The translations under genes and the position numbers were made by a program. A stretch of DNA of 64,000 bases from Planctomycetaceae bacterium (lineage in GTDB: Bacteria > Planctomycetota > Planctomycetia > Planctomycetales > Planctomycetaceae), in assembly GCA_016795145.1 (NCBI GenBank), contig JAEUII010000035.1, positions 1-64,000 on the forward strand, read 5' to 3'. The notes beneath the pieces were generated by a model that had not been told where the DNA came from, did not search any database, and saw only the letters and a list, made by a program, of their open reading frames with translations. This document shows, piece by piece, positions 4,314-57,203 of the stretch (its first letter is position 1; each line of letters begins with the position of its first letter).

Positions 4314-5924
4314 TTAGGAGCTGCAGGAGAGCATGGAGCAGCCGGCGCGGTGGCGGGCCCAGTCGGGGCGTTTTTGTGCGAGATGGTCTTTTTCGGGCTG
4401 GTCGTCATAAGGACGCTGCAGAACCTGAAGCAACTCTTCGATCAGTCCGTTGTCGCCCTGTTCGGCTCGATCAATGGCCAGCTGTGCCAGATAGTTTCGA
4501 AGCACGAACTTCGGATTGACTCGCGCCATTGACGCTCGGCGATGGTCGTCAGTGATTGCCAACGATTGAAGTGCGGTGCGGTACTCCAGGAGCCACGCTT
4601 TCAGTGTTTGTCGATAAGTGTCCGTTGCCTGGTCCGGGCGATACCACGACGACCCAAGTTCGTCGATCACAGCTTCCCATTCGTTCGATGAAGACTCGGC
4701 AGTGAGAGTATCCAGCCGAACATTCCCCAACGTTCGATAGAAGATGGTCATATCAGTTTCGATGGTGCTCAGGATCTCCAGCAGTTTCCCGGACAACTCA
4801 GAAACTTCTTCCGGGACATTGTTTGGAAGTCCCAGCTTGGCGTTCATCATCGCAGAAACTTCGGCATTGAAGTGCGACGTGTAAAGATCGATCCCGGCCT
4901 GCAGAGGCTCAACGCCGGGAAACACGGTTGCGAGCGAGTTGGCCAGTTGAATCAAATTCCACAGGGCGATCTGCGGCTGCTGGGCGAAGGCATAACGACG
5001 ACCGGAAGCGTCAGTTGTGTTGGGAGTCCAGTCAGGATCGTAATTCTCCAGCCAACCATACGGGCCGTAATCAATCGTGAGCCCCAGAATCGACATGTTG
5101 TCCGTGTTCATAACGCCGTGAACAAATCCAACTCGCATCCAGTGAACGATCATGTCGGCCGTACGGCGGCACACTTCATGAAACCAGCGCGTCCGAGTTT
5201 CCGCAGACGCGGGATCAGTCCACTGAAAGTCATGCACAATCGTGTGATCAATCAGCTTGTTCAGGATTTCCCGTTCACTGCGAGCCGCAAGAATCTGAAA
5301 GTTGCCAAACCGAGTGAACGACGGAGCGACTCGACAGACTACAGCACCGGGTTCCCGCTGAGGATTCCCGTCGTAGAACATATCACGAACAACCTGTTCG
5401 CCGGTCGTCACCAGACTGAGTGCTCGTGTCGTTGGGACACCAAGCCAGTGCATCGCTTCGCTGCAAAGAAACTCGCGTACGGAAGATCGAAGAACGGCGA
5501 GCCCGTCGGCGGTTCGAGAATACGGAGTGGGGCCGGCTCCCTTAAGCTGCAGCGTCCAATATTCACCTGCAGCGTTCTTAACCTCCCCGAGATTGATGGC
5601 TCGCCCGTCACCTAACTGACCGGCCCAGTTTCCAAACTGATGGCCCCCGTAGCACATCGCGAATGGATCCATTCCATCAACGACCACGTTGCCTCCCAGC
5701 ACGCGTGCGAGTTCGTCGGCGTGACTTCCGGGAATCGCCGGCAGTCCCAGCCGGATCGCCATATCCGACGACCATCCGATCAACTTCGGCGATGCCACAG
5801 GAGTCGGCTTCACTCGCGAATAGCACGCACCACGAACGGGCCGACGACGATTGGACGAATCCGGATCGGCAGGCAGCTCGCGAGTAAATCGGTTGTCAAA
5901 CACGAGTCCCGAGAAAACGGACAT
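4314..5924 (-). CDS. selO: protein adenylyltransferase SelO (YdiU family)
   Basis: This 536-residue pseudokinase-fold enzyme is expected to transfer AMP from ATP to protein Ser/Thr/Tyr side chains, in a redox-linked role. Family marks are visible: YGGHQFGNWAGQLGDGRA (about 92-109), QLKGAGPTPYSR with the ATP-contacting lysine (about 126-137), HGVMNTDNMS (about 269-278) and DYGPYGW with the metal-binding aspartate (about 285-291). The C-terminus ends SCSS, with cysteine where vertebrate SelO has selenocysteine. Length fits the family. ATG 5924 is preferred over the GTG at 5933 because AAAGGAG lies 8 bases upstream of it. It stands alone, with hisC starting beyond a repeat-bearing gap. Confidence 0.95.
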   Translation of the reverse strand: MSVFSGLVFDNRFTRELPADPDSSNRRRPVRGACYSRVKPTPVASPKLIGWSSDMAIRLGLPAIPGSHADELARVLGGNVVVDGMDPFAMCYGGHQFGNWAGQLGDGRAINLGEVKNAAGEYWTLQLKGAGPTPYSRTADGLAVLRSSVREFLCSEAMHWLGVPTTRALSLVTTGEQVVRDMFYDGNPQREPGAVVCRVAPSFTRFGNFQILAARSEREILNKLIDHTIVHDFQWTDPASAETRTRWFHEVCRRTADMIVHWMRVGFVHGVMNTDNMSILGLTIDYGPYGWLENYDPDWTPNTTDASGRRYAFAQQPQIALWNLIQLANSLATVFPGVEPLQAGIDLYTSHFNAEVSAMMNAKLGLPNNVPEEVSELSGKLLEILSTIETDMTIFYRTLGNVRLDTLTAESSSNEWEAVIDELGSSWYRPDQATDTYRQTLKAWLLEYRTALQSLAITDDHRRASMARVNPKFVLRNYLAQLAIDRAEQGDNGLIEELLQVLQRPYDDQPEKDHLAQKRPDWARHRAGCSMLSCSS

Positions 5925-6111: not shown

Positions 6112-7212
6112 CTACGTTGCATCGGCGGTCGCTTGAGCAATCACATCCGGCAGCACCGCGAGCACTCGATCGATTTCAGCGTCCGTCCCGATCGTAATTC
6201 GCAGCCCGTCGAGCATCGAGCCGTCCGGATTGCCATCCGGGAATCGCATGTAGCGAACCAGGATCCGGCGCTCTTTTAGTTGCTCATAGATTTCACGATG
6301 GTGGCCGGTGGGATGAGTCACCCAGATAAAATTGGCTTCGCTCGGATGGACACAAAATCCCATTCCGGCCAAGGCTGTCGCCAGCCGGCCGCGTGTCGCA
6401 ATGATCTTCTGGCGATTTGCTTCCATCCATGCCTGGTCTTCCAGTGCCGCGGTGGCAGCGGCGATGGAGATGGCGTCACAGTTGTAGCTGTCCTTCACTT
6501 TTCGCATTCCGTCGATCAGTGACGGATGCGCGATGGCGAATCCAAAGCGAATGCCAGCGAGGCTGTAGGACTTGCTGAAGGTTCGCGTCACCACCAGACG
6601 ATTTTCGAAGCGAGCATCCTTCAGCAGCTCACCCCGATGAGGCTTTGAACAGAAGTCGCCATACGCTTCATCAAGAACCAGAACGCCTTTTTCCGGAAGC
6701 AGCTCGGTCAACTGGTCGGCGGACCAGAGCGTACCCGTTGGCGAATTCGGATTAGGAACGTAGAAGACTCGAAGTGAGCGTCGGAGTTCTGCGGCCTTGG
6801 CCTTGTCCCATTGCCATTGAGAGTTCAACCGCAGTCGAACAACTCCGCAGTCCTGAATCTGAGCGAGCGATTCATACAGCACATAGCTCGGGTACGGATA
6901 CCCGATCGACTGCCCCGCATCGCAGAATGATCGAGTGATGATCGTGAGGTTTTCATCACTGCCGTTCGCGGGAAGAATCCACTCCGGATCCACGTTGAAC
7001 AGAGCGGCTGCCGTGCGTCGAAACGCTGTCGCGTGTGGATCGGGATAGATGTTCAGTCGCCCTTCTGCGGTACGGCGAATCGCATCAATCACGCGAGGCG
7101 ACGGCGGATATGGATTCTCATTGGTGTTCAGCTTGACCCAGCCGGTGTCCTGAGGCTGTTCACCGGGCGCATAGCCGGCCATCCGATCAATGGCAGGTCG
7201 AAACACAGACAT
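6112..7212 (-). CDS. hisC: histidinol-phosphate aminotransferase
   Basis: This is a 366-residue PLP-dependent class I/II aminotransferase. It converts imidazole-acetol phosphate plus glutamate to histidinol phosphate in histidine synthesis, in the cytoplasm. Visible motifs: LNTNENPYPPSP (about 28-39), the PLP-contacting ANGSDE (82-87), NPNSPTG (154-160), DEAY (181-184) and the Schiff-base lysine K214 in TFSKSYSLAG. Length is typical. It is not beside other his genes, so the paralogue problem of HisC-like aminotransferases leaves some doubt about substrate, but the motif set is the canonical HisC one. Confidence 0.92.
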   Translation of the reverse strand: MSVFRPAIDRMAGYAPGEQPQDTGWVKLNTNENPYPPSPRVIDAIRRTAEGRLNIYPDPHATAFRRTAAALFNVDPEWILPANGSDENLTIITRSFCDAGQSIGYPYPSYVLYESLAQIQDCGVVRLRLNSQWQWDKAKAAELRRSLRVFYVPNPNSPTGTLWSADQLTELLPEKGVLVLDEAYGDFCSKPHRGELLKDARFENRLVVTRTFSKSYSLAGIRFGFAIAHPSLIDGMRKVKDSYNCDAISIAAATAALEDQAWMEANRQKIIATRGRLATALAGMGFCVHPSEANFIWVTHPTGHHREIYEQLKERRILVRYMRFPDGNPDGSMLDGLRITIGTDAEIDRVLAVLPDVIAQATADAT

Positions 7213-42769: not shown

Positions 42770-44308
42770 TTAGAATTCTCCCAGAAACGCTCGCTTCATA
42801 CGGCGATGACTGCGGGAAATGGCACTGACAAGATCACGCACCTCATCTCTTTCGTTGTCTTCGACTTCGTGCTCGAGCACTTCGAGTTTCTCCCTGACAA
42901 GGCGAGTCTTCCAGCGATGGTAATCACTCAGCTCCCAGTGTCGCAGCCACGCTCCGACTTCCAGCTTTCGAGTCCAGTCGTCATAACGCTCGGCCCAGTA
43001 CTTGGTTTCGGAGTGGTTCATGGCCAGTGCCGAACTGAGGGCTCCAATGCGAGCATCCTCCATGGCAGTCAGACAGTCTTCCGGCGCGGGATAGTAAGTG
43101 AAGCAGCCGACAGTGCTGAGAACAACTAGCCCAAGCAGTGCGAGTGCTCCAAGGACCGGTCCGGGAATCACGATGTCTCGATTCCCAGCAGCGCTTATCT
43201 CCGGCCCGGATTCGCACCATTGCTCCACGCGTCTGGTTCGATCGGCCAGTTGAAGCACGACACTGCCACCAGCAAGGATCATCAGGAACCAAAGCGGACG
43301 CCACTGCCACGGTTCAATATCGCGTTCAACTCGCGATGTGAAAGCGGCGATCATGCCCGGCTCACCGCCAGAAAATGGCCGACAGTAAATGTCGAAAGCA
43401 TGAGTATGATTTGCGGGTTCGATGTCTCGTGGAAAGAGCGGCTTATCCACGGAATAGGCGAGTCCGAGTACCACGCCAAGTAACAATCCCAGAAAGACCG
43501 TACTTCTTCGCAGGCCGTATTCTTTGATCATCCACGCGAGGTTGCCGATGTTCATCCCGGCACCCAGAATCAGGAGGACGAACGCAGCTCCGATGGAGTT
43601 TGCGTGCTGAAACATCATGCCCAGTTGTGACATAGCCAGCATGGGAGTGGCATAGACAGGGATCGACAGGCCCGTCATCCACAGCGGTGCCAGGGGGTTG
43701 TCAAAATTGAAGGTGTGCTGAAGACTGTTCGGAGGCAGTACGACGCCAAGCATCGCGACTCCGCAGAGTCCCAGAAGGATGTAAGCGGCTGACGGTCCGG
43801 CAAGTTCGCGCCCCATGGCAGCCGCGACCGCAACAACTCGTCGAAGGCCATGGGCAACAGCCTTGTCCTCTGGCGCTGGAATTGATGTTCCGGGAAAGAT
43901 CCGATCCCAGATGATGCCAACGATTGTGACAATCACCAGCGAACAGAAACCAAAGGAGATGATGGCCACTGGTTCGGACAGCGTCAGTCCGTACAACAGC
44001 GACAGCGGGTTGAACAATGGCCCGGAAAGCGCAAACGCCAGTATGGTTCCTCCTGAAATGCCTGCCCGGCGAAGTTCTCTTGCGACAGGAATCACGCCCA
44101 GGGAACAGACCGGAAGAAGCATCCCGATCAGCCACGCTCGAACGAGTGACGAACGAGTACCTTCGCCGAACAGCCGCCTAGTCCCCTCCGGCCCGAAGAA
44201 CCGACGCAGCACTGCGGCCGTTGCAAAGCCTGCGAAAATGAACGGCGACGCCTCAACAAGACTCTGCAGGAAACGCAGAAGAAATCCAAAGAACAAAGCG
44301 GACAACAT
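42770..44308 (-). CDS. DUF318/SO_0444-type permease, possible metal efflux
   Basis: This 512-residue protein has about nine to ten membrane helices. The family signature VCSLGVIPVARELRRAG (about 67-83) and the later FALSGPLFNPLSLL are present. Relatives include ArsP-like and SO_0444 Cu/Zn efflux permeases. The last 100 residues form a charged, helical cytoplasmic tail. ATG 44308 is preferred to GTG 44311, with GGAG 7 bases upstream. It follows a His-rich lipoprotein by 68 bases and ends a five-gene minus operon, suggesting metal export, though the operon context is unusual. The metal is not shown by sequence. Confidence 0.78.
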   Translation of the reverse strand: MLSALFFGFLLRFLQSLVEASPFIFAGFATAAVLRRFFGPEGTRRLFGEGTRSSLVRAWLIGMLLPVCSLGVIPVARELRRAGISGGTILAFALSGPLFNPLSLLYGLTLSEPVAIISFGFCSLVIVTIVGIIWDRIFPGTSIPAPEDKAVAHGLRRVVAVAAAMGRELAGPSAAYILLGLCGVAMLGVVLPPNSLQHTFNFDNPLAPLWMTGLSIPVYATPMLAMSQLGMMFQHANSIGAAFVLLILGAGMNIGNLAWMIKEYGLRRSTVFLGLLLGVVLGLAYSVDKPLFPRDIEPANHTHAFDIYCRPFSGGEPGMIAAFTSRVERDIEPWQWRPLWFLMILAGGSVVLQLADRTRRVEQWCESGPEISAAGNRDIVIPGPVLGALALLGLVVLSTVGCFTYYPAPEDCLTAMEDARIGALSSALAMNHSETKYWAERYDDWTRKLEVGAWLRHWELSDYHRWKTRLVREKLEVLEHEVEDNERDEVRDLVSAISRSHRRMKRAFLGEF

Positions 44309-44376
44309 CACTCAGCTCCAGGGGCAGACGGTTCGCATTCTTCAGGTTGAATCCACCAGTTCATTCTGAATCGGGG

Positions 44377-44919
44377 TTATGGGTTCGATGAGGGCACGGA
44401 AGCCTCGGGAGTCTGTCCGGCCGGAACAGGCTCAATGGAATTTGGCACAAGCGCTTTCAGTGCATCGAGATTCTTCTGAACCGCTTCCATGCTGAGAGTT
44501 CGTCCGGCATCTGACGATTCAAACGCCTGCAGAAGTTGTTTGCCTTCCTGGACTGCCGTTTCAAATTCCTGTCGTTTCAGATTGCTGTCGGCTGAGAGTT
44601 CCGGGATCCATTGAATGATGTCCCTCAGTTCGACGGAGCGTTTCTGAAACTCCTTTTCGTCTGCCGCGCTCAGTTTTGGCAAGGTTTCGCAACGAAAGGC
44701 CAGCTGACTGACAAGCTCTTCAAACGACGCTGGTTTGTGCGGCGGAACGAAGTGCTCCAGGTGCTCGTGATCTTCATCGTGATGACCTTCCCCTTCAGGG
44801 TCCGATGTCAGACTCTGAGAGCGATTCGTCTCACTCAATGGCGACTTCTGACATCCCGGCAAAGCCACCAGGACCAGGAAGAACGTCGTGACCACAATGT
44901 CTCGCGGTAAACTCATCAT
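44377..44919 (-). CDS. His/acidic-rich lipoprotein
   Basis: This 180-residue protein has a lipoprotein signal (ALPGC lipobox at about 19-23). Next to it lies a metal-binding-like GHHDEDHEHLEHF segment (about 45-57), then two helical segments with conserved-looking hydrophobic spacing (about 65-145) and a Pro/Ser-rich tail. The ATG overlaps the MoxR stop by 4 bases, so translation should be coupled. Located in the periplasm on the membrane, it could bind a divalent metal for the following permease. No family is recognised. Confidence 0.72.
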   Translation of the reverse strand: MMSLPRDIVVTTFFLVLVALPGCQKSPLSETNRSQSLTSDPEGEGHHDEDHEHLEHFVPPHKPASFEELVSQLAFRCETLPKLSAADEKEFQKRSVELRDIIQWIPELSADSNLKRQEFETAVQEGKQLLQAFESSDAGRTLSMEAVQKNLDALKALVPNSIEPVPAGQTPEASVPSSNP

Positions 44920-45872
44920 GCTCCAACCTCCGGAACAGGAACTCGATCGATGATCTCCTGAATGACAGCCGCGCTTTCCTGTGGGTCGAGGCCAATACGA
45001 ACGCTCAACACGGGACCGGCGACGTCCTGAACATCATCGGGCGTCACAAACGTTCGCCCAGCCAGCCAGGCTCGAGCCTGAGCGACACGCTGCCAGATCA
45101 ACAATCCTCGCGGGCTGAGACCCAGACTGATCGAAGGATGACGCCGTGTTTCCTGAGCCAGCTGAACAAGATACCTCAGAACACTCTCCGCGACCGATGT
45201 GCACGCAACCGACTGTTGAATGCGTCGCAGCTGTTCCGGGCTCAACGCGCTGGCAGTGGCAGTACGCTGCGAGTCAACGACTCCAATCGCATCCTGCAAC
45301 ATACGAACTTCATCGTCTGGCTCCGGATAACCAACGCTCAGCTTCATGCAGAATCGGTCCAGCTGAGCCTCCGGCAACGGATATGTTCCGTGCTGATCGA
45401 CAGGATTCTGCGTCGCAATGACCAGAAACTGATGGCTCAGTTTGTAGCGACGAGTATCCACCGTGACTTGCCGCTCGGCCATCGCTTCCAGCAACGCACT
45501 TTGCGTTCGGGGCGTTGCGCGATTGATTTCGTCAGCGAGTAGAATGTCAGAAAAGACCGGGCCTTCTCTGAACTCAAACTCCTGTGTCTTTTGATTGAAG
45601 ATGCTGAATCCGGTGATATCTCCTGGCAGGAGATCCGGGGTGCACTGACAACGGGCGAATCGACCGCCCAGACCATCGGCAAGTGCTTTCGCGAGCGTTG
45701 TTTTGCCAAGGCCCGGTTTGTCTTCCAGCAGAAGATGGCCATTCGCCAGCAGGCAGAGAAGAACCATTTCGATCACCTCTGGCTTTCCCCTCAGGCTGGC
45801 ATTCAGGCGGCCGCGAAGCCGATCGATCGCTTCAAAGTCCTGCGTTGTTTCAGGTGTGGCAAGTCGGATCAT
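44916..45872 (-). CDS. MoxR-type AAA+ ATPase
   Basis: This 318-residue ATPase has Walker A DKPGLGKTT, LPGDITG, Walker B ILLADEINR, sensor ATQNP (AAA+ with the helix 2 insert) and the C-terminal LSPRG lid motif. MoxR ATPases act as chaperones that often work with a DUF58 protein, as here. ATG 45872 lies 62 bases beyond the preceding stop codon and is the usual start for the family (upstream frame to 46034 would overlap the previous gene by 100 bases). Its 3' end overlaps the lipoprotein start. Confidence 0.9.
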   Translation of the reverse strand: MIRLATPETTQDFEAIDRLRGRLNASLRGKPEVIEMVLLCLLANGHLLLEDKPGLGKTTLAKALADGLGGRFARCQCTPDLLPGDITGFSIFNQKTQEFEFREGPVFSDILLADEINRATPRTQSALLEAMAERQVTVDTRRYKLSHQFLVIATQNPVDQHGTYPLPEAQLDRFCMKLSVGYPEPDDEVRMLQDAIGVVDSQRTATASALSPEQLRRIQQSVACTSVAESVLRYLVQLAQETRRHPSISLGLSPRGLLIWQRVAQARAWLAGRTFVTPDDVQDVAGPVLSVRIGLDPQESAAVIQEIIDRVPVPEVGA

Positions 45873-45934
45873 GGAGTTGTTGGCTTTGACGAAAGAAGTC
45901 TCTTGAGGTCGTAGGAATTCGAATGGACTTGAGA

Positions 45935-48427
45935 TCACGGGCGGAGTTGTGTGCCTGATGCTGCCAGGCGTTGCCTTGCCCGCATTTCCTGAAGGAGCGA
46001 TCGTTGTGAGACAAGCGATATCACTTCCCGGCAAACGACCTGAATGTGATCGGCCTGACTTTGCAGAGTTTGGGGATGTCCAAACATCGCGATCTCAGTA
46101 AGGTTGAGATACTGCGGAAGGACGGTTCCCTGTGTGGTCAAGTGCCGGTGGATCCATCGGTTCAGTGTCATTCCTGCAGGCCGTTCGAACCGGGCTCGCC
46201 GAAGCCGATGCTCGATCAGCCTCGCAACGCGCCGAAGCCTCATCGCAGGATCTGCACCTGGCCACCAGCGACAGACAGCCGTTTCAATTGCGTCGACAAC
46301 CGCAACACGATAAAGAAATCCCAGGATGGCGACGACAAGTGATCCTGCCGTCAGGATCCAGTGGCGTCCCAGAAATCGAATGCCATTCAGCAGCGAACTG
46401 GTGATACGCTCCAGTAACTTTGGCGGTGGAGCGGGGGCCTGATATCCAGGCGTCGCTTCGACCGTGACCCATGTGCCAAGTCCGACAAAGACTTCGCACC
46501 AGAAGTGAGCGTCGGAGGCATGCACTGGTGTGTGTCGTTTCTTCGCATCGTATTTCTCAGGACGTGCGTAGAATCCCGAAACAAGGCGCGAGGAATATCC
46601 AAGGCTGCGAATCATCACAGCGGCAGCCGTTGCAAACAGATATTGTTCCCCGCGCCGCGTTCGAAACAGGAAGCGACTCAACGGTGATTCCTCGTCACTG
46701 GGGGAGGCTGCCTTATCGGTTTGAGATTCCTGATCAGGGGCAGACTGATGAGGGTCCGAAGATTCTCCCAGCGTGTATTCGTGTCGAAGATGATCGCAGA
46801 TCGCCTGAATCTTCTGGTAGCCGTCAGGAACGTCCTGAGTCCATTCGGCTGCCAGGGCGGCAATGCGTTCCATTTCAACGCCGGTTGGCAAAGTGTTCTC
46901 AGGGCTTCCGGATCGCATTGAGAAGCGGAGGTTCTGATGGCCCAGAAGCAGTTCCGGATCAATCACATCTGATTGCAGGTGAATCGGCGTCAGTTCGGGA
47001 AGGATTGCCCTGTTCATACGAACGATGGAATCGCAATGCCATGCAAACAAAGAAGAATCTTCCACCTTGTCGATATGAATGGCGCGAGTATCCAACGGTG
47101 CGGGGATCACGTTGCTCTTCAGGTTGACTGGGCGAATGATGTGATGATCCGCGTGAGCATGAACTCCCAGACTGCGGCTGCCACAGGGAATTCGGAGCCA
47201 TGGCGTGCCGTAGGTCGGGACAATGGCCATTCGCGGCCCGTCGTTGAGTTCCGCATACGGATACCAGTCGATGCCATCAAAAACATCGTAGAGTTCCATA
47301 CGCAGATGCGCGGGGACTCGACCGTTCAGGTAGAACAAAGCCACGGATTCAAGATCCTGAAGTCTCTGGTTCTTTGACTTCGACGGCTTTCGGTCTGTGG
47401 AGAATTCACGGCTGGCCTGCTGAGACTTCGCCATGCGAGCCCTGGTCTCCGCCATAAGTCCCGGAGGCAGCGCCACGGCTCGCTGCTGATCTTTGATCTT
47501 TCGAACCGGTTCATCGAACTGATCATTAATGACGTCGTACAGGCTTGGTTTGTCGTCATCTGCAAACGGTGCATCGTCGATCGATCCGAAACTCCGAATG
47601 TCATTCTTCCCGGCAACGAGTGCATCGCCGTCATTCACGCCACCACGAGAGAATTCATCGTAACTGCCTTCGCCACCAGATCCCGGCAGGTAGCCTCGAA
47701 CCGAACGAATGACATCGTGCCCGCTGGCCGAGGCAACCGCGAGCGCTGACAAGGGAATCGCCGGGCCAATGATCAGCCAGCGCCAGGGGAGAGCTGTTCG
47801 CTCAGTCTTCAGAAGTCGCTGCTGCAATCCGTTCCAATACGCTGCAGTCAGCCAGCTGATGACCGAAAACGCAAAAGCAGCAATGAGCCACGCAATCTGC
47901 ACGTTTCTGCCAACCGACGCACAGAAGACCGACAACGCCACGCCGATGAACACACAGAGTCGCTGGCATGATGGGCGAAACCCAAAGACGGCCAGGGCGA
48001 GCATCAGGTTCTTTTGCGAATGCATGACCATCATTTCGAACGGTCGTCCATACAACAGAGCCCAGCGTTGAAAGGGTTCCCATATCAGGCTCAGGAGGAC
48101 GACAAGGAGAAGCACTGGTACGATTGCGGGAGTCAGATCCTGGTGACGCTGCCGATAACGGATCAGGGTTGCGCCAAGGACCGTCGCAGAGGATTCGAAA
48201 ATGAACTGCCCCCAAAGCCAGATCGAGCTGCGTCCTCCATCTGCGTCGGTGATCAAAAATGTCGCCATTGCAAGGATCGCCATGACGACCGTCATTGCAT
48301 GGAGAGCAACATTGGACGTTGGCTGCATTAAAGCTGGACGATGTTCCGATGCCACAGATCTCCTTTTGTGCGATGTAACTCGATGTTGAACCGCGAGTCC
48401 GTCGGTGGCAGGAAGTTCAGCGTGCAT
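45935..48427 (-). CDS. membrane transglutaminase-like protein (TgpA type) with the catalytic Cys replaced
   Basis: This 830-residue protein has about six N-terminal membrane helices (to about residue 235), a large periplasmic region with a transglutaminase core, and a final helix near 690-715. In the core the usual GxCxxFA reads RRGEQYLFATA, so glutamine (about Q595) stands at the catalytic cysteine. The histidine (about H641 in DAHFWCEV) and the acidic residue (TVEATPG) are kept. It is therefore likely not a hydrolase or transferase of the usual type. The start ATG 48427 overlaps the DUF58 stop by 11 bases, with GGGAG 7 bases upstream. It is encoded between DUF58 and MoxR, a common envelope-linked set. 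Confidence 0.82.
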   Translation of the reverse strand: MHAELPATDGLAVQHRVTSHKRRSVASEHRPALMQPTSNVALHAMTVVMAILAMATFLITDADGGRSSIWLWGQFIFESSATVLGATLIRYRQRHQDLTPAIVPVLLLVVLLSLIWEPFQRWALLYGRPFEMMVMHSQKNLMLALAVFGFRPSCQRLCVFIGVALSVFCASVGRNVQIAWLIAAFAFSVISWLTAAYWNGLQQRLLKTERTALPWRWLIIGPAIPLSALAVASASGHDVIRSVRGYLPGSGGEGSYDEFSRGGVNDGDALVAGKNDIRSFGSIDDAPFADDDKPSLYDVINDQFDEPVRKIKDQQRAVALPPGLMAETRARMAKSQQASREFSTDRKPSKSKNQRLQDLESVALFYLNGRVPAHLRMELYDVFDGIDWYPYAELNDGPRMAIVPTYGTPWLRIPCGSRSLGVHAHADHHIIRPVNLKSNVIPAPLDTRAIHIDKVEDSSLFAWHCDSIVRMNRAILPELTPIHLQSDVIDPELLLGHQNLRFSMRSGSPENTLPTGVEMERIAALAAEWTQDVPDGYQKIQAICDHLRHEYTLGESSDPHQSAPDQESQTDKAASPSDEESPLSRFLFRTRRGEQYLFATAAAVMIRSLGYSSRLVSGFYARPEKYDAKKRHTPVHASDAHFWCEVFVGLGTWVTVEATPGYQAPAPPPKLLERITSSLLNGIRFLGRHWILTAGSLVVAILGFLYRVAVVDAIETAVCRWWPGADPAMRLRRVARLIEHRLRRARFERPAGMTLNRWIHRHLTTQGTVLPQYLNLTEIAMFGHPQTLQSQADHIQVVCREVISLVSQRSLLQEMRARQRLAASGTQLRP

Positions 48428-49727
48428 GGCAGGCTCCCTTCCATCGCGCTGAAAGTTGAGCGACCCAGTTCGAGCCAGCTTCCAGAGAAATCCATGCCGG
48501 CGGCAGTCGGTCGTCACGTGAAGAAGTCGTCCCTGTGGTCAGCGAGACGACATGAAGCCCCTGAAGTTGTGATGCGCGCCATCGCTGCCCGGCAACCGTG
48601 GTAATTCCAATACCGAATCCCGAGGAACGAAGTCGCGAGGCTCTTAAACGCGGCTGCGGCTGAAGCTCTGCAGTTGCCAGTCGATCCATGAGAGCCTGAA
48701 AGCCGATGGCCGATGATCCGGCGACAAAATGGTCGTCGCCCACCACCAGTTCAACTCGGCAGTGCTGTTCGTGGAGTGATTCACAAATGCTGGCAGTCGT
48801 GCGAATCAACAATTCCAGAGAATCTTCCGCGTGTCGGTTGTCGACATCCCATTCAATGTGGCTGGCTGGATCGAGGTCGAGGTAAACAAGGACGGCTGTC
48901 GTTTCCATCGCCTGTCGTTCGCACACAATCAGCTGTCGCTGTCGTGCTGTCTGTGCCCAGTGAATTCGTCGAAGCGAATCTCCTTCACGAAACGGTCGAG
49001 TCCCCAGCATGTCGCCAAAATCACCGGCTCGACGTTCCGCCAGAGTATCATCGCCGCGAGTTTCTTCTGTGTCCGGGAGGCCCGCAAGGTCCACAGTCGC
49101 TGGCCAGACAATCAGACGACCGTCGACTTCAGCCTTGCGTCCAAATCGAAGCAACCCGAAAGGAAAAGCCGTCTCCAGCTCCGGCGTGCACAACGGATAA
49201 TGGCCTCGGCTTGTCGGAACGAACGGCCATGTGTATTCCACGGTGGACCAGGCGGGGATGTGAGCCAGTGAGACGCCTTCCGATGTCTCCTGCGAAGTCT
49301 TCAGCGCGAAACCGCGAATCAGCGAAAGTCCCCAGGCAGGCCAGGGCCAGCGGTTGCGAACCTGTAACCGGACAATCGACGCCTTCCCGACACGACCGCG
49401 GCGGTGATCGAATCGAATATGACACTCCAGCCCGCGCACTGTCAGCCACGGAAGGAAAGTGCCGACACCTGCCAGAACACTCAGGATCGCAGTGACAATG
49501 AACGCAGACGGGTTCACAAACATGCCGCAGACGAGCGACAGCAGAACCGCCAGCATCAGGCACCAGAACGGACTCTTCAGCCAATACACCCAGCGATTTG
49601 CCCACGGACAGAAGTCATGGTTCAGCGCACGATGCAAAGTCTTCACGCTGCCGCTCAACGGCTCGCGCGTCGGCATGGAGACCGAACTTGAGAGATCAGA
49701 TTCGAAGGACACGACGAGTTCCACCAC
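48417..49727 (-). CDS. DUF58 protein of the MoxR operon
   Basis: This 436-residue protein has two membrane helices (about 52-70 and 76-95) and a beta-sandwich before the DUF58 vWA-like core. The DUF58 signature RPFREGDSLRRIHW (about 246-259) is present. DUF58 proteins pair with MoxR ATPases; the role is thought to be assembly or folding of an envelope complex. The start is GTG 49727 (an ATG at 49676 is also possible). It is the first gene of the five-gene operon, and the next gene overlaps its end. Confidence 0.85.
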   Translation of the reverse strand: MVELVVSFESDLSSSVSMPTREPLSGSVKTLHRALNHDFCPWANRWVYWLKSPFWCLMLAVLLSLVCGMFVNPSAFIVTAILSVLAGVGTFLPWLTVRGLECHIRFDHRRGRVGKASIVRLQVRNRWPWPAWGLSLIRGFALKTSQETSEGVSLAHIPAWSTVEYTWPFVPTSRGHYPLCTPELETAFPFGLLRFGRKAEVDGRLIVWPATVDLAGLPDTEETRGDDTLAERRAGDFGDMLGTRPFREGDSLRRIHWAQTARQRQLIVCERQAMETTAVLVYLDLDPASHIEWDVDNRHAEDSLELLIRTTASICESLHEQHCRVELVVGDDHFVAGSSAIGFQALMDRLATAELQPQPRLRASRLRSSGFGIGITTVAGQRWRASQLQGLHVVSLTTGTTSSRDDRLPPAWISLEAGSNWVAQLSARWKGACHAR

Positions 49728-49970
49728 AGATGCAGAGCGAACGGTCCGCGCCGAACTTCATTCGCGCAGGACTGAATGCTCTGTTCCAGCAATCAGCAAG
49801 CACGGGAGTTCAGGCGACAAGGGCAATCAGCGCGGTCAACCGTGGCGTGTCATTCCTCTTCAGCTAGACGATGCGCGAGGCAAACTGAAGTGAAGAGATT
49901 TTCGGCGTTGGAAAGATGCCGGTCCGCTCGGAGATGAGCCGGAGTATTGACACAGTGTATCGGAACCGCG

Positions 49971-50411
49971 CTAAGCAGTGGCCGGCGGTCCGCGTGTCAG
50001 TGGCAGAGGCAGTACATCACCGAATTCCCGGGCCGCGGAACGGTCCGAAAACACAGCGATTTGCTCAGTCGAAACAATCTGAGCAACCCAGTGAAATGAA
50101 CTACCGATCTTCAGGAACCAGTCGCAAAGACGGCAGTTATCTGAGTCATGTGACGGGGATTCAGACTTGTCATCCGGGGCTGTTGAGTCGTCGTGAGAAT
50201 GGCTGTGATGAAGGCCATGGGCGTGGCCATGAGCATGAGCGTGCCCATGATGGTCGACGTCTTGCCCATGATGGCTGGAACAGTGCTGGCCGGAAGCATG
50301 GTCAGCGGAGCAACAGGCTCCCGAAAGTTCCGCTAGTCGGTGAATACCCGAATGCCCCAGCATTGCTACGGCACACCAGACAATCAGTAGTAGCGAGCGA
50401 AGAAGTCGCAT
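49971..50411 (-). CDS. small His-rich exported protein
   Basis: This 146-residue protein has a signal-anchor (about 5-20). A remarkable histidine run-like region (about 45-78) holds twenty His residues, with units such as HGHAHAHGHAHG, flanked by CC and C residues near 33-34 and 44. It is followed by NCRLCDWF (about 92-99), which may be a metal-binding or redox CxxC-like site. A metal-storage or metallochaperone role is inference. The DUF58 operon starts 243 bases downstream on the same strand; a hairpin lies upstream. Confidence 0.7.
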   Translation of the reverse strand: MRLLRSLLLIVWCAVAMLGHSGIHRLAELSGACCSADHASGQHCSSHHGQDVDHHGHAHAHGHAHGLHHSHSHDDSTAPDDKSESPSHDSDNCRLCDWFLKIGSSFHWVAQIVSTEQIAVFSDRSAAREFGDVLPLPLTRGPPATA

Positions 50412-50506
50412 GAACGTTTTCGGGGTCGAGTAGATTCACGCCTGAAACGGCTGTCACGTTGTACGATCGCTTACGCCCCTCTGCGAGGTGGATTTTTCAG
50501 AATTTG

Positions 50507-50537
50507 CTCCCGACCCGCAAAAAAACAGGGCCGGGAG
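50507..50537. other. hairpin between leuS and the His-rich gene
   Basis: CTCCCGACCC pairs with GGGCCGGGAG with one mismatch around an A-rich loop. It lies about 130 bases beyond the leuS stop. It could act as a terminator but has no trailing T-run. Confidence 0.35.
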
Positions 50538-50604
50538 GGCAGCAAACACCTGAGAGCAGGCGTTTGGCGTCAAAGTCCTCGCGTTGGATGAAGGAATGAT
50601 GAAT

Positions 50605-50630
50605 GACTATTGGAGATTGAAAAATGCAAA
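50605..50630 (-). repeat. repeat family E, copy 2
   Basis: GACTATTGGAGATTGAAAAA followed by TGCAAA. Inverted relative of 40852-40880, differing at one position over the shared core. It sits just past the leuS stop codon. Confidence 0.7.
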
Positions 50631-50665
50631 TCTGCCTTCTGCATTTGCCTTCTCCAGGGCTCCGG

Positions 50666-53374
50666 TTACTTCACCACGAAGTTCAACAGGCGTCCGGGGA
50701 CGGCGATAACTTTCACAACCGTCTTTCCCTCAAGATGCTTGCGCACGGATTCGTCGGTTTCGGCGAGTCGCTGGAGTTCAGCGGCGTCGATGCCGTTTGG
50801 AACGACGATCTTACTGCGTAGTTTTCCGTTGACCTGGACCGGAACTTCGACCGTGTCTTCCACCAGCATGGCCGGGTCATACTGAGGCCACGGTTCGTAC
50901 GCCATGGTCTTCGTCTGGCCAAGTGCCGCCCAAAGTTCTTCGGCGATGTGTGGAGCAAACGGGCTCAGCAGCTGCACGAATGACGAAAGCACGGACTTCG
51001 GACGAACCTCCTGGTTCGACATGAAGTTGGTGAACTCCATCATGCGGCTGATTGCGGTATTGAACGCCAGTCGATCAATGTCGTCTGTAACCGCCTTGAT
51101 CGTCTTGTGAAGGACTCGCAGCTGTTCCTCGGTGGGCTCTGCATCGGTCACATTCGAAGCAAGCTGAACGGCTTCCGCTCGGTCATCGATCACCATACGC
51201 CAGACTCGGCCAAGGAACCGATAGACACCTTCAACGCCGCTCATTTGCCAGGGCTTCACCTGCTCAAGCGGCCCCATGAACATTTCGTAGAGACGAAGAG
51301 CATCCGCACCGTAGTCCCTAACGATGTCGTCAGGATTAATGACGTTGCCTCGCGACTTCGACATCTTCTCGGCCTTACCGTTCTCATCCGGTTCACCCAG
51401 GATCATTCCCTGATTCACCAGTTTCTGGAACGGCTCCGGCGTCGTCACATAACCACGGTCGAACAGCACCTTATGCCAGAAGCGTGAATACAGCAGATGC
51501 AGAACGGCATGTTCCGCACCGCCGATGTAGAGGTCGACGGGCAGCCAGTATTTTTCTTTGGCTGGATCAATGAAGTTGTTTGAGTTCTTGTTGTCGCAGA
51601 AGCGCAGGTAGTACCAGCAGCTTCCTGCCCATTGAGGCATGCTGTTGGTTTCTCGCTTCAGTTTCACACCGTCGGTGTCGGTCTTGTAGAGCCAGGTAGG
51701 TTCCGCCTTCGCCAGCATCGGCTCGGGTGTTCCCGTGGGCTTGAAGTCTTCCATGTGAGGATGAAGCACCGGAAGAGATTCGACCGCGTCCGTTCGCATC
51801 AGCCCGGTCGGATTGCCCTCGGCATCCAGTTCATGCCAGATCGGGAATGGTTCGCCCCAATAGCGCTGACGGCTAAACAGCCAGTCGCGAAGACGGTAAT
51901 TGACGGCTTCTCGCCCAACACCCGCCTCGGAAAGATCCTTTGTGATCTGACTCTTGAATTCGGCGGTTGCCGTTCCGTCGTACTTGCCGGAATTCACCGC
52001 AACGCCGGTTTCGACAAACGCAACATTGTCGATGTCAGCGACGTGGCCACTTCCTGGAGCAGGAGCAACCACCTGACGAATTGGAATGCCGAACGTCTTC
52101 GCAAACTCATAGTCTCGTTCATCATGCGCGGGCACGGCCATGATGGCTCCCGTGCCGTAGCTGATCAGAACGTAGTCGGCGATCCAGACTGGAACTTTTT
52201 CGCCATTGACCGGATTGATCGCATAGCCGCCGGTGAAGACACCGGTCTTGTCCTTGGCCAGATCAGTTCGATCGAGGTCGCTCTTCAAGGACGCCTTAGT
52301 ACGATACTCATTCACCGCCGCTCGCTGTTCCGGAGTCGTAATCCTGTCGACCAGAGGATGCTCCGGCGCGAGCACCATGTAGGTCACACCGAACAGCGTG
52401 TCAGGGCGAGTTGTATAGATGCGAATCGTGTCCGCGGCTGGTTCCCTGGGAAATGGCTTTTCTGAAAGCGGAGAAGTGGCGGCGCCGTTTTCCGCTTTCC
52501 GCTCTCCGCTTTCAATCCGAAAGTCAACTTCCGCGCCAACGCTGCGACCGATCCAGTTGCGCTGCATGAGCTTGATCGCTTCTGACCATGTCAGAGATTC
52601 CAGCTCGTTCGCGAGGCGATCGGCATAGGCAGTGATTCGAAGCATCCACTGCTTCAGAGGCATGCGAACGACCGGATGGCCGCCTCGCTCGCTCTTGCCA
52701 TCAATGATCTCCTCATTGGCAAGCACTGTCCCGAGAGCCGGACACCAATTGACCGGTGCTTCGGAGACATAGGCAAGGCGATGCTTGTCCTGATAGCGGC
52801 GCACGGCTTCCGATGCTGGCTTTCCGTTTTCAGAGGCGAGTTCTGCAGGAATCGGCAGCTCGCTGATAGGACGCCCCTTGCCCTTGCGTTTCACACCATC
52901 CGGGCCGGTCCATTCGAAGTCGGCATCGTACCAGGTATCGAACAGCTGAAGAAAGATCCACTGCGTCCAGCGATAGTAGTCGGGATCTGTCGTGGCAAGT
53001 TCGCGATTCCAGTCATAGCTGAATCCCAGCATCTTCAGCTGACGCTTGAATGTTGCGATATTCTGTTCGGTCGTGATACGAGGATGCGTGCCAGTCTTTA
53101 CGGCATGCTCTTCCGCAGGAAGCCCGAACGCATCCCACCCCATCGGATGCAGAACATTCATCCCCTTCATGCGCGAGTAGCGACAGACGATGTCTGTGGC
53201 CGTATATCCTTCCGGATGGCCAACGTGCAGACCGCTTCCTGACGGATACGGAAACATGTCCAGGACGTAGAGCTTCTTCTTGTCCGAAACGCAGTCTTCT
53301 GTCCGAAACGTGTCGTTCTGTTCCCAGTACTGCTGCCAGCGGGATTCAATGGATTTGTAGTCGTAACGAGGCAT
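50666..53374 (-). CDS. leuS: leucyl-tRNA synthetase
   Basis: This 902-residue class I aminoacyl-tRNA synthetase charges tRNA-Leu. The HIGH motif is present as [11 protein letters not shown], the class signature KMSKSRGNV follows in the C-terminal half, and the CP1 editing domain occupies about 225-420 (TRPDTLFG, with DERDYEFAK near its end). There is a bacterial-type anticodon and C-terminal domain. The ATG at 53374 starts the conserved [10 protein letters not shown]; upstream codons to 53476 are non-conserved. It stands alone. Confidence 0.97.
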
Positions 53375-53802: not shown

Positions 53803-54675
53803 TCAAATCGGCATGACATCGACGCTGACGGAAAGGCGATGCTGACCGCCTCCAACAAAGACGCCCGTCAGCGGTGGCACATCGGAATAATCTCGTCCCC
53901 AGGCGAGCACGATGTGGTCCAAACCGCATTCCGTATCGTTGGTCGGATCGACGCTGAGCCAACTGCCTGCTCCGCAATAGGCCGAAAGCCACGCGTGCGA
54001 TGCATCAGCGCCGACCAGTCGCGGCTGGCCAGGAGGAGGAATCGTGCGAAGATATCCACTGACATACCGTGCCGGGATTCCGAGACATCGCAGCATCGCG
54101 ATCTGCAAGTGGGCAAAGTCCTGGCAAACACCTCGACGAAGACGAAAGACTTCATTCACTGGAGTATTCACCGTCGTCGCGCGATTGTCGTACACGAAAT
54201 CGGTGTGAATTCGCTGAGTCAGGTCGGTGATCGCCTCGACGATCGGTCGGCCTTCCGAAAAAGACTCAAGGGCATAATTCCGAATGGCATCATTCCACAG
54301 GATTCGAGGCGACGAATAGGAGAACTCCAACGCGTCCCGGTCTGCAGAATCCCAGTGCTGGCGAACCGCCTGGCGAACTTCTTCCCACGTCATCGTTCTT
54401 GCGGCGTTTGATTTCATCATTTCGCGAACGGTGACCACCGTTGTCGCGACGACGTCCAGCTTCTGATATCCCTCGTTGAAGGAGAACACATGGACTGGAT
54501 TTCGGAAGGCATCGGTCCGTCGAGTCTTCACGGAGGGCTCGGGATCAATGTGCAGATGAAATGACTCCACCTGCTGCCAGTCGACCGGTCGAAACTCCAG
54601 CCACGCCTGGTTGTGGCCGATCGAAACTGGGTCGTGCCCGGAATAGGTCGTGCGATGAGTAATCCGATACTTCAT
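53803..54675 (-). CDS. transglutaminase-like cysteine protease-fold enzyme
   Basis: This 290-residue protein has a beta-rich N-terminal domain (about 1-100) followed by the transglutaminase core. The triad is complete: C184 in RRGVCQDFAH, H227 in ASHAWL and D243 in SVDPTND. The N-terminal domain and core match the bacterial transglutaminase family usually encoded beside circularly permuted ATP-grasp/alpha-E proteins, where they are proposed to act in peptide ligation or trimming. It starts 2 bases after the ATP-grasp stop codon, so the two are one operon. Confidence 0.92.
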   Translation of the reverse strand: MKYRITHRTTYSGHDPVSIGHNQAWLEFRPVDWQQVESFHLHIDPEPSVKTRRTDAFRNPVHVFSFNEGYQKLDVVATTVVTVREMMKSNAARTMTWEEVRQAVRQHWDSADRDALEFSYSSPRILWNDAIRNYALESFSEGRPIVEAITDLTQRIHTDFVYDNRATTVNTPVNEVFRLRRGVCQDFAHLQIAMLRCLGIPARYVSGYLRTIPPPGQPRLVGADASHAWLSAYCGAGSWLSVDPTNDTECGLDHIVLAWGRDYSDVPPLTGVFVGGGQHRLSVSVDVMPI

Positions 54676-54677
54676 GG

Positions 54678-57203
54678 CTACCCCGGCAACTCGCTGAACT
54701 GTCTGGGGGCTCCAGAATGCACGAGGTACTTGTTCGTCAGTGCATCCGAGAGCTTGATCATCGATTCGTCGACGACTCTTAATGTCGCGATCACGGCCTT
54801 CGGATTGGCAGCGGCCAGATCTTCCGCCGTCAGCATGCGAACAGCGTGCGCGGCTTCCATCACAAGCCGCATTTCGCCGGAACGAAGTGGCTGAGTCGTG
54901 AAGCCCGGCAGTCGGTCGACATGCGAGACCAGGCGATCAATCTGATACGCGAGCGACCGCGGATTCGTTTCATCTGTGATGGCCAGGTCCAGCACCGCGT
55001 TCCTCTGCAGGTTCTCACGGTATCGAAAGCGATACGTCATGCGAACGTCGAGCACTTCGACGAGCGTCTTCAGCAACGTCGGCGCCATGGGGCCTCGGCG
55101 GAAGTCCGCGGAGATCAACAGCCTGGCCGTCGCACCTGCACGTTCGATGCAGCGACCGATCTCCATGAACCGCCATGATGGACCACGATTCATGCCGTCT
55201 GCAATCAACCCGCTGACCGACGCAAGATCGCCGACGAGTGAGTTTGAGGACGCAACGACGTCCGCAAGGTCTCGCCAGTCTTTGTTCGGTGTCGCCCAGA
55301 ATGATTCGGCAGTGACGTTGATTCGGTGCCACGTATCGGGACTAATCCAGTCGCGGACGAGTGAGGCGAGTCGAGTCAGATCGCGAACGGTACGAGCCAG
55401 TCCGCCATATTCCTGAGGATCAAAGACGGCGATTGGCAGAGCTTCCGCAAGTGAAGGAAGCTGTGACTCCATTCCATCCACGACGAAACCCGGTTCGATC
55501 TGTCCCTGTTCGCTCAGAGCCCGCGCGAGGAATCGGACTTCTGTCAGATCTACGCTGCCTTCACCAACAAGCCGTTCCGCGAGTGCTCGCACAAGGCGGC
55601 AAAGAAAGTCACAACGGTCGATCGATCGTCCAAGCCAAAACAGATTGTCCGCGACACGACTTGGGAACAACGCGCTCGTTCGTCGCAGTTCAGCGGGTTG
55701 ATCCTGAGGCGTCAACAGCGACACTGGATCGACCTTGCGATCGGCGATCACCCAAAGATCTTTGCTGCCATCGCCGGCAGAAACAGACAGTTGCATCGGC
55801 CCCGTATCCGGAGCAATTCGAATCAGTCCGCCGGGCATCAGATGCCAGTGATTGTCTTCTTCAACCAGAAATGCTCGCACCGCCGCATGCCCACAGCGAA
55901 CGCCCTGCTCTGTCCAGACTGGCAGACCGGATCGAGCAATCTTCTCCTGAGCCACCCAGGCCCACGGTTCCGTCTGAATGCGTTTGAGAACCTCGTCGCG
56001 CTTCGCGGTGCTGAGGTCGCTGACGATGATTTCTTCACCACCGCTTTTCTGAAAGGCGGGTTTGAGCACCAGATCTGTGAAGTGCGCTTCAACAAACTTC
56101 ATGCTCTCCGAATCACCGCACCACCAGGTCGGAATAGATCCCAGTCGAAGCTGTTCCCCAAGAAGCTTCTCGCAAAGCTTCGGCAGGAACGCCATGAAGA
56201 CGGGTGCTCCCACGATTCCGCAGCCTGGCGTGTTCACAACTGACACGTTGCCGCAGCGAATCGCGTTCAGCAACCCCGGAACACCATGCGCGGAATGCGA
56301 GCCGAGCTCCAGTGGATCGAGGCCGGACTCCGCACAGCGCCCCAGAATGATGTCGACGGGAATCAGGCCCGAGAGCGTTTTCAGGAAGACCGTGTCGTTG
56401 CGAATCGCCAGGTCGCCGCCTTCAGCCATGGTGTAGCCAAGGTAACGCGCGAGGTACACGTCTTCGAAGAAATACGGATGAGTCGGCCCGCTTGATAGCA
56501 GGACGATGCGTGGGTTCTCAATCGGTTTTGCCGTGCGTCGTCGAAGCGAGTTTTGAAGACGCCCGAAGAAGCCCGCAAGTCGCTCCACCGGAATCTGCTT
56601 GAAGGCCGATGGCATCGATCGAGCACTGACGATGCGGTTCTCTAAAGCGAAGCCCGGGCCGGCCGGCGCTTCGGATCGGTCCGCCATGACGCACCAGGAA
56701 CCGTTCGCCGACCGAGCCAGTTCGGCGGCATACAGAAACATGGAGCTGACGTCCGGTCGTCGCAAATCGCAGAACGGACGAAGAAACTCCGGGTTGGCAT
56801 AAAGCACTTCCGGAGGTAACAGCCCTTCTTCGACCAGGCGGCGTGGACCGTAAATGTCCGAGATCAGCAGATTCAAAAGTCTGGCTCGCTGTCCCAGAGC
56901 AATCTCCAGCGACGACCATTCGGCCGCTGTGGTCAGCATCGGGAGCAGGTCAAGACGCCAGGGGCGAGCACCTTCGCCGCCGTCGGTGACGGAGTGATAG
57001 TTCACGCCGTTCTCGCGCAGCATGCGGTCGGCCTGAGCGTTTCGGCGAGCAAACTCCGTGGGAGCGACGGTTCGATAGGCGTTCAGAAACTTCTGCCAGT
57101 GGGCACGCGGCGCGCCGTCTGGACCGTACACTTCGTTAAAGACTGTGGCGGGGCACGAGAACACAGGTTCCGTTCGTAGTCCCGACACTGCTCCGCTGCT
57201 CAT
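54678..57203 (-). CDS. circularly permuted ATP-grasp and alpha-E domain fusion protein
   Basis: The product has 841 residues. The N-terminal half (about 1-490) is a circularly permuted ATP-grasp type 2 domain (DUF404/DUF407), with RRLVEEGLLPPEVLY, VLLSSGPTHPYFFED and VLKPAFQKSGGEE near the ATP site. The C-terminal half (about 510-830) is the helical alpha-E (DUF403) domain, beginning FPSRVADNLFWLGRSIDR. The two are separate genes in many bacteria and are fused here. Family knowledge predicts a peptide-bond-forming modification system acting with a transglutaminase, encoded immediately downstream. The peptide substrate is unknown. Confidence 0.92.
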   Translation of the reverse strand: MSSGAVSGLRTEPVFSCPATVFNEVYGPDGAPRAHWQKFLNAYRTVAPTEFARRNAQADRMLRENGVNYHSVTDGGEGARPWRLDLLPMLTTAAEWSSLEIALGQRARLLNLLISDIYGPRRLVEEGLLPPEVLYANPEFLRPFCDLRRPDVSSMFLYAAELARSANGSWCVMADRSEAPAGPGFALENRIVSARSMPSAFKQIPVERLAGFFGRLQNSLRRRTAKPIENPRIVLLSSGPTHPYFFEDVYLARYLGYTMAEGGDLAIRNDTVFLKTLSGLIPVDIILGRCAESGLDPLELGSHSAHGVPGLLNAIRCGNVSVVNTPGCGIVGAPVFMAFLPKLCEKLLGEQLRLGSIPTWWCGDSESMKFVEAHFTDLVLKPAFQKSGGEEIIVSDLSTAKRDEVLKRIQTEPWAWVAQEKIARSGLPVWTEQGVRCGHAAVRAFLVEEDNHWHLMPGGLIRIAPDTGPMQLSVSAGDGSKDLWVIADRKVDPVSLLTPQDQPAELRRTSALFPSRVADNLFWLGRSIDRCDFLCRLVRALAERLVGEGSVDLTEVRFLARALSEQGQIEPGFVVDGMESQLPSLAEALPIAVFDPQEYGGLARTVRDLTRLASLVRDWISPDTWHRINVTAESFWATPNKDWRDLADVVASSNSLVGDLASVSGLIADGMNRGPSWRFMEIGRCIERAGATARLLISADFRRGPMAPTLLKTLVEVLDVRMTYRFRYRENLQRNAVLDLAITDETNPRSLAYQIDRLVSHVDRLPGFTTQPLRSGEMRLVMEAAHAVRMLTAEDLAAANPKAVIATLRVVDESMIKLSDALTNKYLVHSGAPRQFSELPG

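Follow-up and report, generated by a model that had tools for sequence, protein, structure and literature searches.

Two studies describe DUF2946 proteins as nascent-chain metal sensors, in both cases for copper and in a proteobacterium (CruR, PMC9426467; CutF, PMC9973294). CruR (Bp2923) of Bordetella pertussis is a copper-responsive upstream ORF; once its RAPP motif was changed, the gene behind it was no longer expressed (PMC9426467). With CutF of Rhodobacter capsulatus, copper raises the multicopper oxidase; CutF functions only when its operon is intact, and its His-only cousins precede HupE/UreJ genes (PMC9973294). A third DUF2946 gene, CC2720 of Caulobacter, is listed just ahead of the RND genes czrC/czrB; a zur study recorded a change in it (0.46), and its RND context sets it apart from the leaders described here (PMC4176598).

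The C-terminal motif of these proteins has a literature of its own. RGPP and RAPP give robust ribosome arrest and occur preferentially towards the C-terminal end of small exported proteins; bacterial proteomes avoid both, and RGPP is one of the tetrapeptides that they avoid most (PMC12992588). Seven Streptomyces lividans RAPP/RGPP peptides, like ApdA, ApdP and ApcA, are small, are exported or sit in the membrane, and carry the motif close to their C-terminal end; some are encoded upstream of metal genes (PMC12992588, PMC10987492); an export signal combined with a RAPP-like motif is the design of a secretion monitor (PMC10987492). As for Planctomycetes, Roy et al. noted 'a few' DUF2946 proteins (PMC9426467), and Fujiwara et al. 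gave RGPP/RAPP frequencies across many phyla, Planctomycetota included (PMC12992588). The main text of the latter study mentions neither zinc and ZnuA nor DUF1559, DUF58, MoxR, permease, pilin or pilus, zinc and ZnuA are absent from the main text on CruR (PMC9426467), and the CutF paper makes no mention of Planctomycetes (PMC9973294). A search of the main texts of open-access papers turned up nothing closer to the leaders and partners reported below.

The locus considered here lies in a 64,000-nucleotide stretch of planctomycete DNA (the window), and its first gene shares with CruR an export signal, a CxxC, a RAPP-like motif three residues from the end, the first position in an operon and a long gap to the next gene (243 nt; 162 bp in CruR) (PMC9426467). 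It differs from CruR in the spacing between the two motifs (43 versus 45), in having RGPP rather than RAPP and in its rich His stretch; moreover, CruR heads a TonB transporter, whereas the planctomycete leaders head DUF58/MoxR/ArsP, DUF1559, Flp, CobW or ZnuA genes (PMC9426467). With CutF it has in common a Sec signal, a Cys metal motif and a Pro-rich C-terminus, but CutF has a CxxxC and a stem-loop hiding the next SD, where the window leader has a CxxC and no fold signal of this sort was found for its DUF58 class (PMC9973294). The leader either belongs to the DUF2946/CruR kind or is closely related to it; its partners were not found in print, and its metal is probably new.

The leader and its operon in the window

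Table 1. Features of the leader and of the operon behind it (window coordinates)
Feature	Position	Strand	Evidence
Leader ORF, 146 aa, DUF2946/CruR-like	49971..50411	minus	ORF list; PF11162 match below cut-off
Putative export signal, hydrophobic, ~residues 1-24, last residue H24	50340..50411	minus	hydrophobicity
His-rich stretch (residues 38-73), variable in length and His count among relatives	50193..50300	minus	
CxxC (CRLC, residues 93-96), putative metal site, H88 ahead	50124..50135	minus	
RGPP (residues 140-143), putative ribosome-arrest motif, 3 residues before stop	49983..49994	minus	
Gap from leader stop to DUF58, 243 nt	49728..49970	minus	
DUF58 protein, first structural gene	48417..49727	minus	PF01882, 25.9 bits (cut-off 23.4)
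Transglutaminase-like protein, 860 aa	45935..48517	minus	PF01841, 55.3 bits
MoxR-type AAA+ ATPase	44916..46034	minus	PF07726, 206.2 bits
Lipoprotein, His-bearing N-terminal linker, predicted helical	44377..44919	minus	without curated family
ArsP_1-type permease with C-terminal extension	42770..44311	minus	PF03773, 77.6 bits

DUF2946 is the one near-full-length Pfam match of the window leader (E=5e-4): residues 7-143 align to positions 8-117 of the 117 in the profile, and the score of 21.2 bits is under the cut-off (23.7). Exactly 43 residues lie between the CxxC and the RGPP, and this spacing, the CxxC itself and the RGPP three residues from the end fit the CruR/DUF2946 anatomy; the Cys motif is not of the CutF CxxxC type, CRLC being a CxxC. 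The export signal is present as judged by hydrophobicity, and the leader heads the operon by position, with the long gap behind it. In a pattern search of the leader protein against genome contigs, no relatives were found among the 275 matches.

The original prediction of a very His-rich small exported protein had the coordinates and strand of the ORF right, and the HGHAHAHG units, the CC (residues 33-34), C44, the NCRLC that contains the CxxC and the hydrophobic start are all there in the translation. The His richness is real too, but the proposed count of about 20 His in 34 residues was too high: the densest such stretch (residues 43-76) holds 14, which was reached by none of 2000 shuffles of the leader's own composition, and the runner-up among the 356 window ORFs of at least 60 aa holds 6. 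The whole protein has 19 His and 6 Cys in its 146 residues. Neither the RGPP nor its fixed spacing from the CxxC had been remarked on. The leader was also said to adjoin an operon with a second His-rich protein and a permease; it does lie on the same strand, 243 nt upstream of the DUF58 gene, but the lipoprotein and the permease are the last two genes of the operon, 5-7 kb off.

The permease passes the broader ArsP_1 family, and its best NCBIfam match is NF033936 (SO_0444 Cu/Zn efflux permease), with 77.4 bits and thus under the cut-off of 300. No Pfam or NCBIfam family was found for the window's lipoprotein, whose predicted fold consists of helices (mean pLDDT 83.9) and gave no match in the PDB at E<=0.001; its family has conserved HLEHxVPxHKP and WxPELAADS motifs. 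Matches of the leader and the lipoprotein to ZIP, ZrgA and nickel-exporter families were weak and probably reflect His composition, and were rejected. Elsewhere in the window, a second transglutaminase-like ORF (53803-54675; ~1e-10 to the profile of the operon transglutaminase) adjoins an 841-aa ORF (54678-57203), which we take to resemble ATP-grasp/alpha-E proteins.

Signals for expression were sought in and around the leader. Folding of the window's 243-nt gap was not unusual (z -1.01), and after the stop codon of the DUF58-class leaders none of 19 loci had z below -2 (mean z -0.54), these values being measures of folding excess. The DUF1559 class had a weak excess (z below -2 in 14 of 60 loci versus 7 of 57 controls). 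In terms of folding excess, a CutF-type stem-loop left no signal in the window or the DUF58 class, and only the DUF1559 loci gave a slight one. Rho control via a C>G bubble gave a mixed result. C exceeded G in the 78-nt windows starting from 78 nt before to 132 nt after the leader's stop codon, and was raised across 79 leaders relative to downstream controls, a comparison confounded by His and Pro codons; in the DUF58 class alone the mean C-G was -0.002 (controls, -0.021), and C exceeded G in 5 of 18 gaps. No sigma-70-like promoter was found in 49600-50800, and the one terminator-like site there, which is inside the leader, compares with 1.2 expected by chance. The suggestion of a metal-regulator site in 50412-50480 did not hold up for Zur: Zur-like palindromes occur 81 times in the window against 81.5 expected, and the single one in that interval (50458, 3 mismatches) is unremarkable.

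Relatives of the leader

Counting the window's own genome each time, leader matches were found in 10 of 59 genomes with the single protein, in 62 of 297 genomes of its class with a 14-row profile, and in 107 of 244 sampled planctomycete genomes with a 101-row profile. Six matches to the 14-row profile were left out, five with E of 0.001-0.0065 and one of 5.8e-4 with in-frame stops. PF11162 itself matched over its cut-off in 9 of 59 genomes (six places, weak or with in-frame stops, were left out); the own genome is among the nine by virtue of another leader, on contig 19. This genome has three clear leaders (contigs 57, 268 and 19) and two weaker matches.

In the first alignment (14 rows, one of them the window leader), RGPP stands 2-6 residues from the end of every row, and H24, H88, both Cys and the RGPP are invariant. 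Of 107 non-redundant leaders, 101 entered the larger alignment, in which the invariance of Cys, R and PP is a product of the selection criteria; H24 is likewise invariant, though never selected for. DUF2946 was the sole Pfam family at E<=0.01 for these 101 leaders, 34 of which match it.

The distance between the two motifs hardly varies. Among 138 distinct leaders from 199 loci (identical 60-residue ends taken once, leftmost CxxC used), the spacing was 43 in 95, 46 in 24, 44 in 11, 45 in four, 42 in two, and 49 and 50 in one each. The 60 residues before the CxxC contain 2-19 His (median 8; background median 1.6), with a His at most six residues ahead of the CxxC in 127 of the 138, and a hydrophobic N-terminus was assignable in 135, start codons having been picked to favour one. 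Conservation of the His tract and of NCRLC had been proposed as the check on the original prediction: homologues exist, their neighbours are conserved and the CxxC is kept, but the His tract is hypervariable.

The pairing of the two motifs was also compared with other C-terminal motifs. Of the 15215 distinct stop-to-stop segments with 60 or more codons in the 199 loci, 153 end in R(G/A)PP plus no more than 10 residues, and 137 of the 153 have a CxxC 40-50 residues upstream, as against 1 of 125 segments (a SAPP) for 16 other motifs, which is a motif-versus-motif comparison inside the pool because the pool is enriched by homology searches. The dN/dS ratio was 0.17-0.55 in all 16 leader pairs, so that the leader is a translated, constrained protein.

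Genes behind the leaders

Partners were recognised with home-made profiles, seeded with members mostly identified by Pfam. For 95 leaders of the window's class (three of which, L060, L073 and L096, fail the strict motif and are still counted), the first recognised partner within 1.2 kb was a DUF1559 pilin-like gene in 60, DUF58 in 19, an Flp pilin in five and a CobW GTPase in four, with NicO, ArsP and MoxR once each, other genes in three and a contig end in one; seven partner classes thus cover 91 of the 95. Thirteen of the 19 DUF58-class leaders are followed by all five genes as in the window, and in five loci DUF1559 and DUF58 genes both lie within 7.5 kb downstream. The leader-linked CobW of L072, the one tested, passes the cut-off for the zinc chaperone ZigA (614.7 versus 600). 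The RND context of czrC/czrB is one of efflux.

Several arrangements recur in these loci. Flp-like pilin genes lie behind the leader in L046, L047, L063, L071 and L112, and more Tad-type genes were seen by eye beyond them in L046, L063, L071 and L112. A protein of 540-590 aa that has the N-terminal domain only of a prepilin peptidase turns up repeatedly next to CobW, NicO or the DUF58 operon (L072, L074 and L098, with PF06750 identified in these three; also L039 and L062). In one genome (G106, 6.03-6.05 Mb; L056 and L072), three leaders within ~17 kb precede DUF58-transglutaminase, DUF1559, and CobW-MoxR-lipoprotein-ArsP genes, and a fourth leader match lies ~8 kb further on.

Outside the class, leaders were taken from 40 of 78 matching genomes. 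A ZnuA-profile gene lies within 2.8 kb of 27 of these 40 leaders, which is not a random sample because 20 genomes were chosen largely for their score and 20 so as to represent diverse families; nine leaders have a pilin-like gene, one has ArsP and three have no recognised partner. Three of the 40 lack the motif; the 37 with CxxC-x42-47-RxPP comprise 27 with ZnuA, eight with pilin-like genes and two cut by a contig end. All six ZnuA proteins scanned have PF01297, and NCBIfam ranked a zinc system first for all six, in each case under the equivalog cut-off and with manganese relatives close behind. A protein of ~430-610 aa usually occupies the interval between leader and ZnuA (neither of two scanned matches Pfam). 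In L200, Pfam identifies an ATPase and an ABC-3 permease as the next genes after ZnuA, and the same order was judged by eye elsewhere. Leaders before ZnuA-type genes in other classes (L199, L200, L201, L203, L205 and others in L199-L238) end in RPPP, RSPP, RAPP or RGPP, the RPPP and RSPP endings making up 12 of the 37 outside-class leaders with a scored motif.

Within the class, none of the 95 leaders has a ZnuA gene downstream on the same strand. The sole ZnuA in 173 class and DUF58 loci is that of L191 (Rhodopirellula solitaria; 4821-5912, minus; PF01297, 243.9 bits), which is directly upstream of, and divergent from, the leader (6139-6633, plus) of a DUF58 operon. ZnuA-family genes are kept in 36 of 40 genomes searched, the window's own included, and a replacement of ZnuABC by the ArsP operon in this class was therefore rejected. 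The metal-handling neighbourhood that had been proposed for the window is supported by relatives preceding ZnuA, CobW/ZigA, NicO and ArsP genes.

A further test started from DUF58 rather than from leader homology. A scan of named genomes with a DUF58 alignment gave 259 relatives, the best 80 of which were kept (79 with planctomycete titles, one titled only 'bacterium'). Seventy-five of these best 80 had at least 600 nt upstream, and 43 of the 75 had a same-strand leader within 2.5 kb with a spacing of 42-49, a rate that is biased in that leader-bearing loci supplied the query and at least 11 of the 80 contigs, judged by their lengths, were already part of the leader-derived set. The spacing was exactly 43 in 27 of the 43 leaders, and the records with a leader include Rhodopirellula, Neorhodopirellula pilleata and Singulisphaera. 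Loci in which an ArsP gene was seen had a leader in 31 of 52 cases. ArsP was also seen in 21 of the 32 leaderless loci, none of which contains a degenerate leader with R(G/A)PP and a CxxC at 40-50. Thus, the operon can live without the leader, which is common but not obligatory. In two leaderless loci (L149 and L153) a CobW gene lies directly before DUF58.

Mechanism, metal and alternative roles

We consider it likely that the leader is a cis-acting nascent-chain metal sensor, probably for zinc, that controls the operon, and that it is not mainly a structural metal binder. The analysis establishes its anatomy, fixed spacing, coding selection, operon-head position and partner repertoire. The leader would be translated first from the operon and exported, and its His stretch and CxxC would cross the membrane, or at least exit the ribosome, as the RGPP is reached ~43 codons later. 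The RGPP would tend to arrest the ribosome, a metal (most likely zinc) on the emerging CxxC/His part may alter this arrest, and the position of the ribosome would then decide expression of the DUF58-transglutaminase-MoxR-lipoprotein-permease operon. Given the length of the ribosome tunnel, the fixed distance would fit a CxxC that is just leaving the ribosome when the RGPP is at the peptidyl transferase centre. The likelier polarity is that metal-poor cells would have arrest and the operon on, and metal-rich cells release and the operon off; this follows the analogy with CruR, where an importer is shut down when metal is bound, and the relatives that precede zinc-uptake genes. Arrest, metal identity, polarity and the choice between Rho and mRNA structure as the means of control are what we infer. 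Against the proposed sensor stand the PF11162 score of the window protein, which is under the cut-off, the lack of a fold signal, the confounded C>G excess with its 5 of 18 DUF58-class gaps, the copper precedent of both tested systems and the ability of the operon to lack the leader.

Zinc is the most probable metal because the partners with a readable substrate are of zinc type; nickel, cobalt and manganese are possible. For the window leader itself, zinc is proposed by analogy, since the ZnuA genes of its class lie elsewhere in the genome (36 of 40), with none downstream of the 95 leaders and L191 the sole case beside one. That the same leader mechanism responds to copper, as in CruR and CutF, or to nickel or cobalt seems rather unlikely, a judgement that bears on the metal alone. 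Both tested DUF2946 systems sense copper (PMC9426467, PMC9973294), the permease's best NCBIfam match is a Cu/Zn exporter, albeit far under its cut-off, and NicO genes lie near some leaders; on the other hand, the readable partners are of zinc type, with ZnuA behind 27 of 40 outside-class leaders and ZigA over its cut-off, these being profiles without copper and with manganese close behind.

It is improbable that the protein is instead a His/Cys-rich metal buffer or chaperone, stable in the periplasm and acting in trans, and is the operon's first gene by chance. Its many His and Cys, the metal-related partners and the purifying selection would suit such a role, but the 60 residues before the CxxC hold anything from 2 to 19 His, whereas the CxxC, the spacing and the near-stop R(G/A)PP are almost constant, and RGPP is a tetrapeptide that bacterial proteomes avoid (PMC12992588). 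The parts that stay fixed are, as in CruR, the CxxC and the R(G/A)PP with an unchanging distance between them, and it is unlikely that the protein is no more than a His-rich metal binder. A secretion monitor like SecM or ApdA/ApdP, in which export pulling frees the arrest and the CxxC and His serve only folding or export, is improbable as well: it would have the same design of export signal and RAPP-like motif (PMC10987492), and many partners are exported pilin-like proteins, but the CxxC stands at a fixed spacing with a His shortly before it in 127 of 138 leaders, and the partner families covered by the profiles include metal transporters.

Returning to the cis-acting metal sensor, we suggest, tentatively, that it belongs to a phylum-wide zinc-sensing arrest-leader regulon, in which CxxC-43/46-R(G/A)PP leaders would stand before ZnuA-type uptake genes in some classes, whereas those of the window's class would head DUF1559 pseudopilins, Flp/Tad pili, ZigA-like GTPases and the DUF58-ArsP operon. 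If this is true, the DUF58-transglutaminase-MoxR-lipoprotein-ArsP operon would be a zinc-controlled system for handling metal in the envelope that has yet to be described. With the leader family, DUF2946-type sensing would reach a phylum whose envelopes are unusual and, probably, a second metal, and the readable geometry of the leaders would predict exact stall sites. The family would also offer a first way into the function of the DUF1559 pilin-like proteins and of the DUF58/transglutaminase/MoxR operon.
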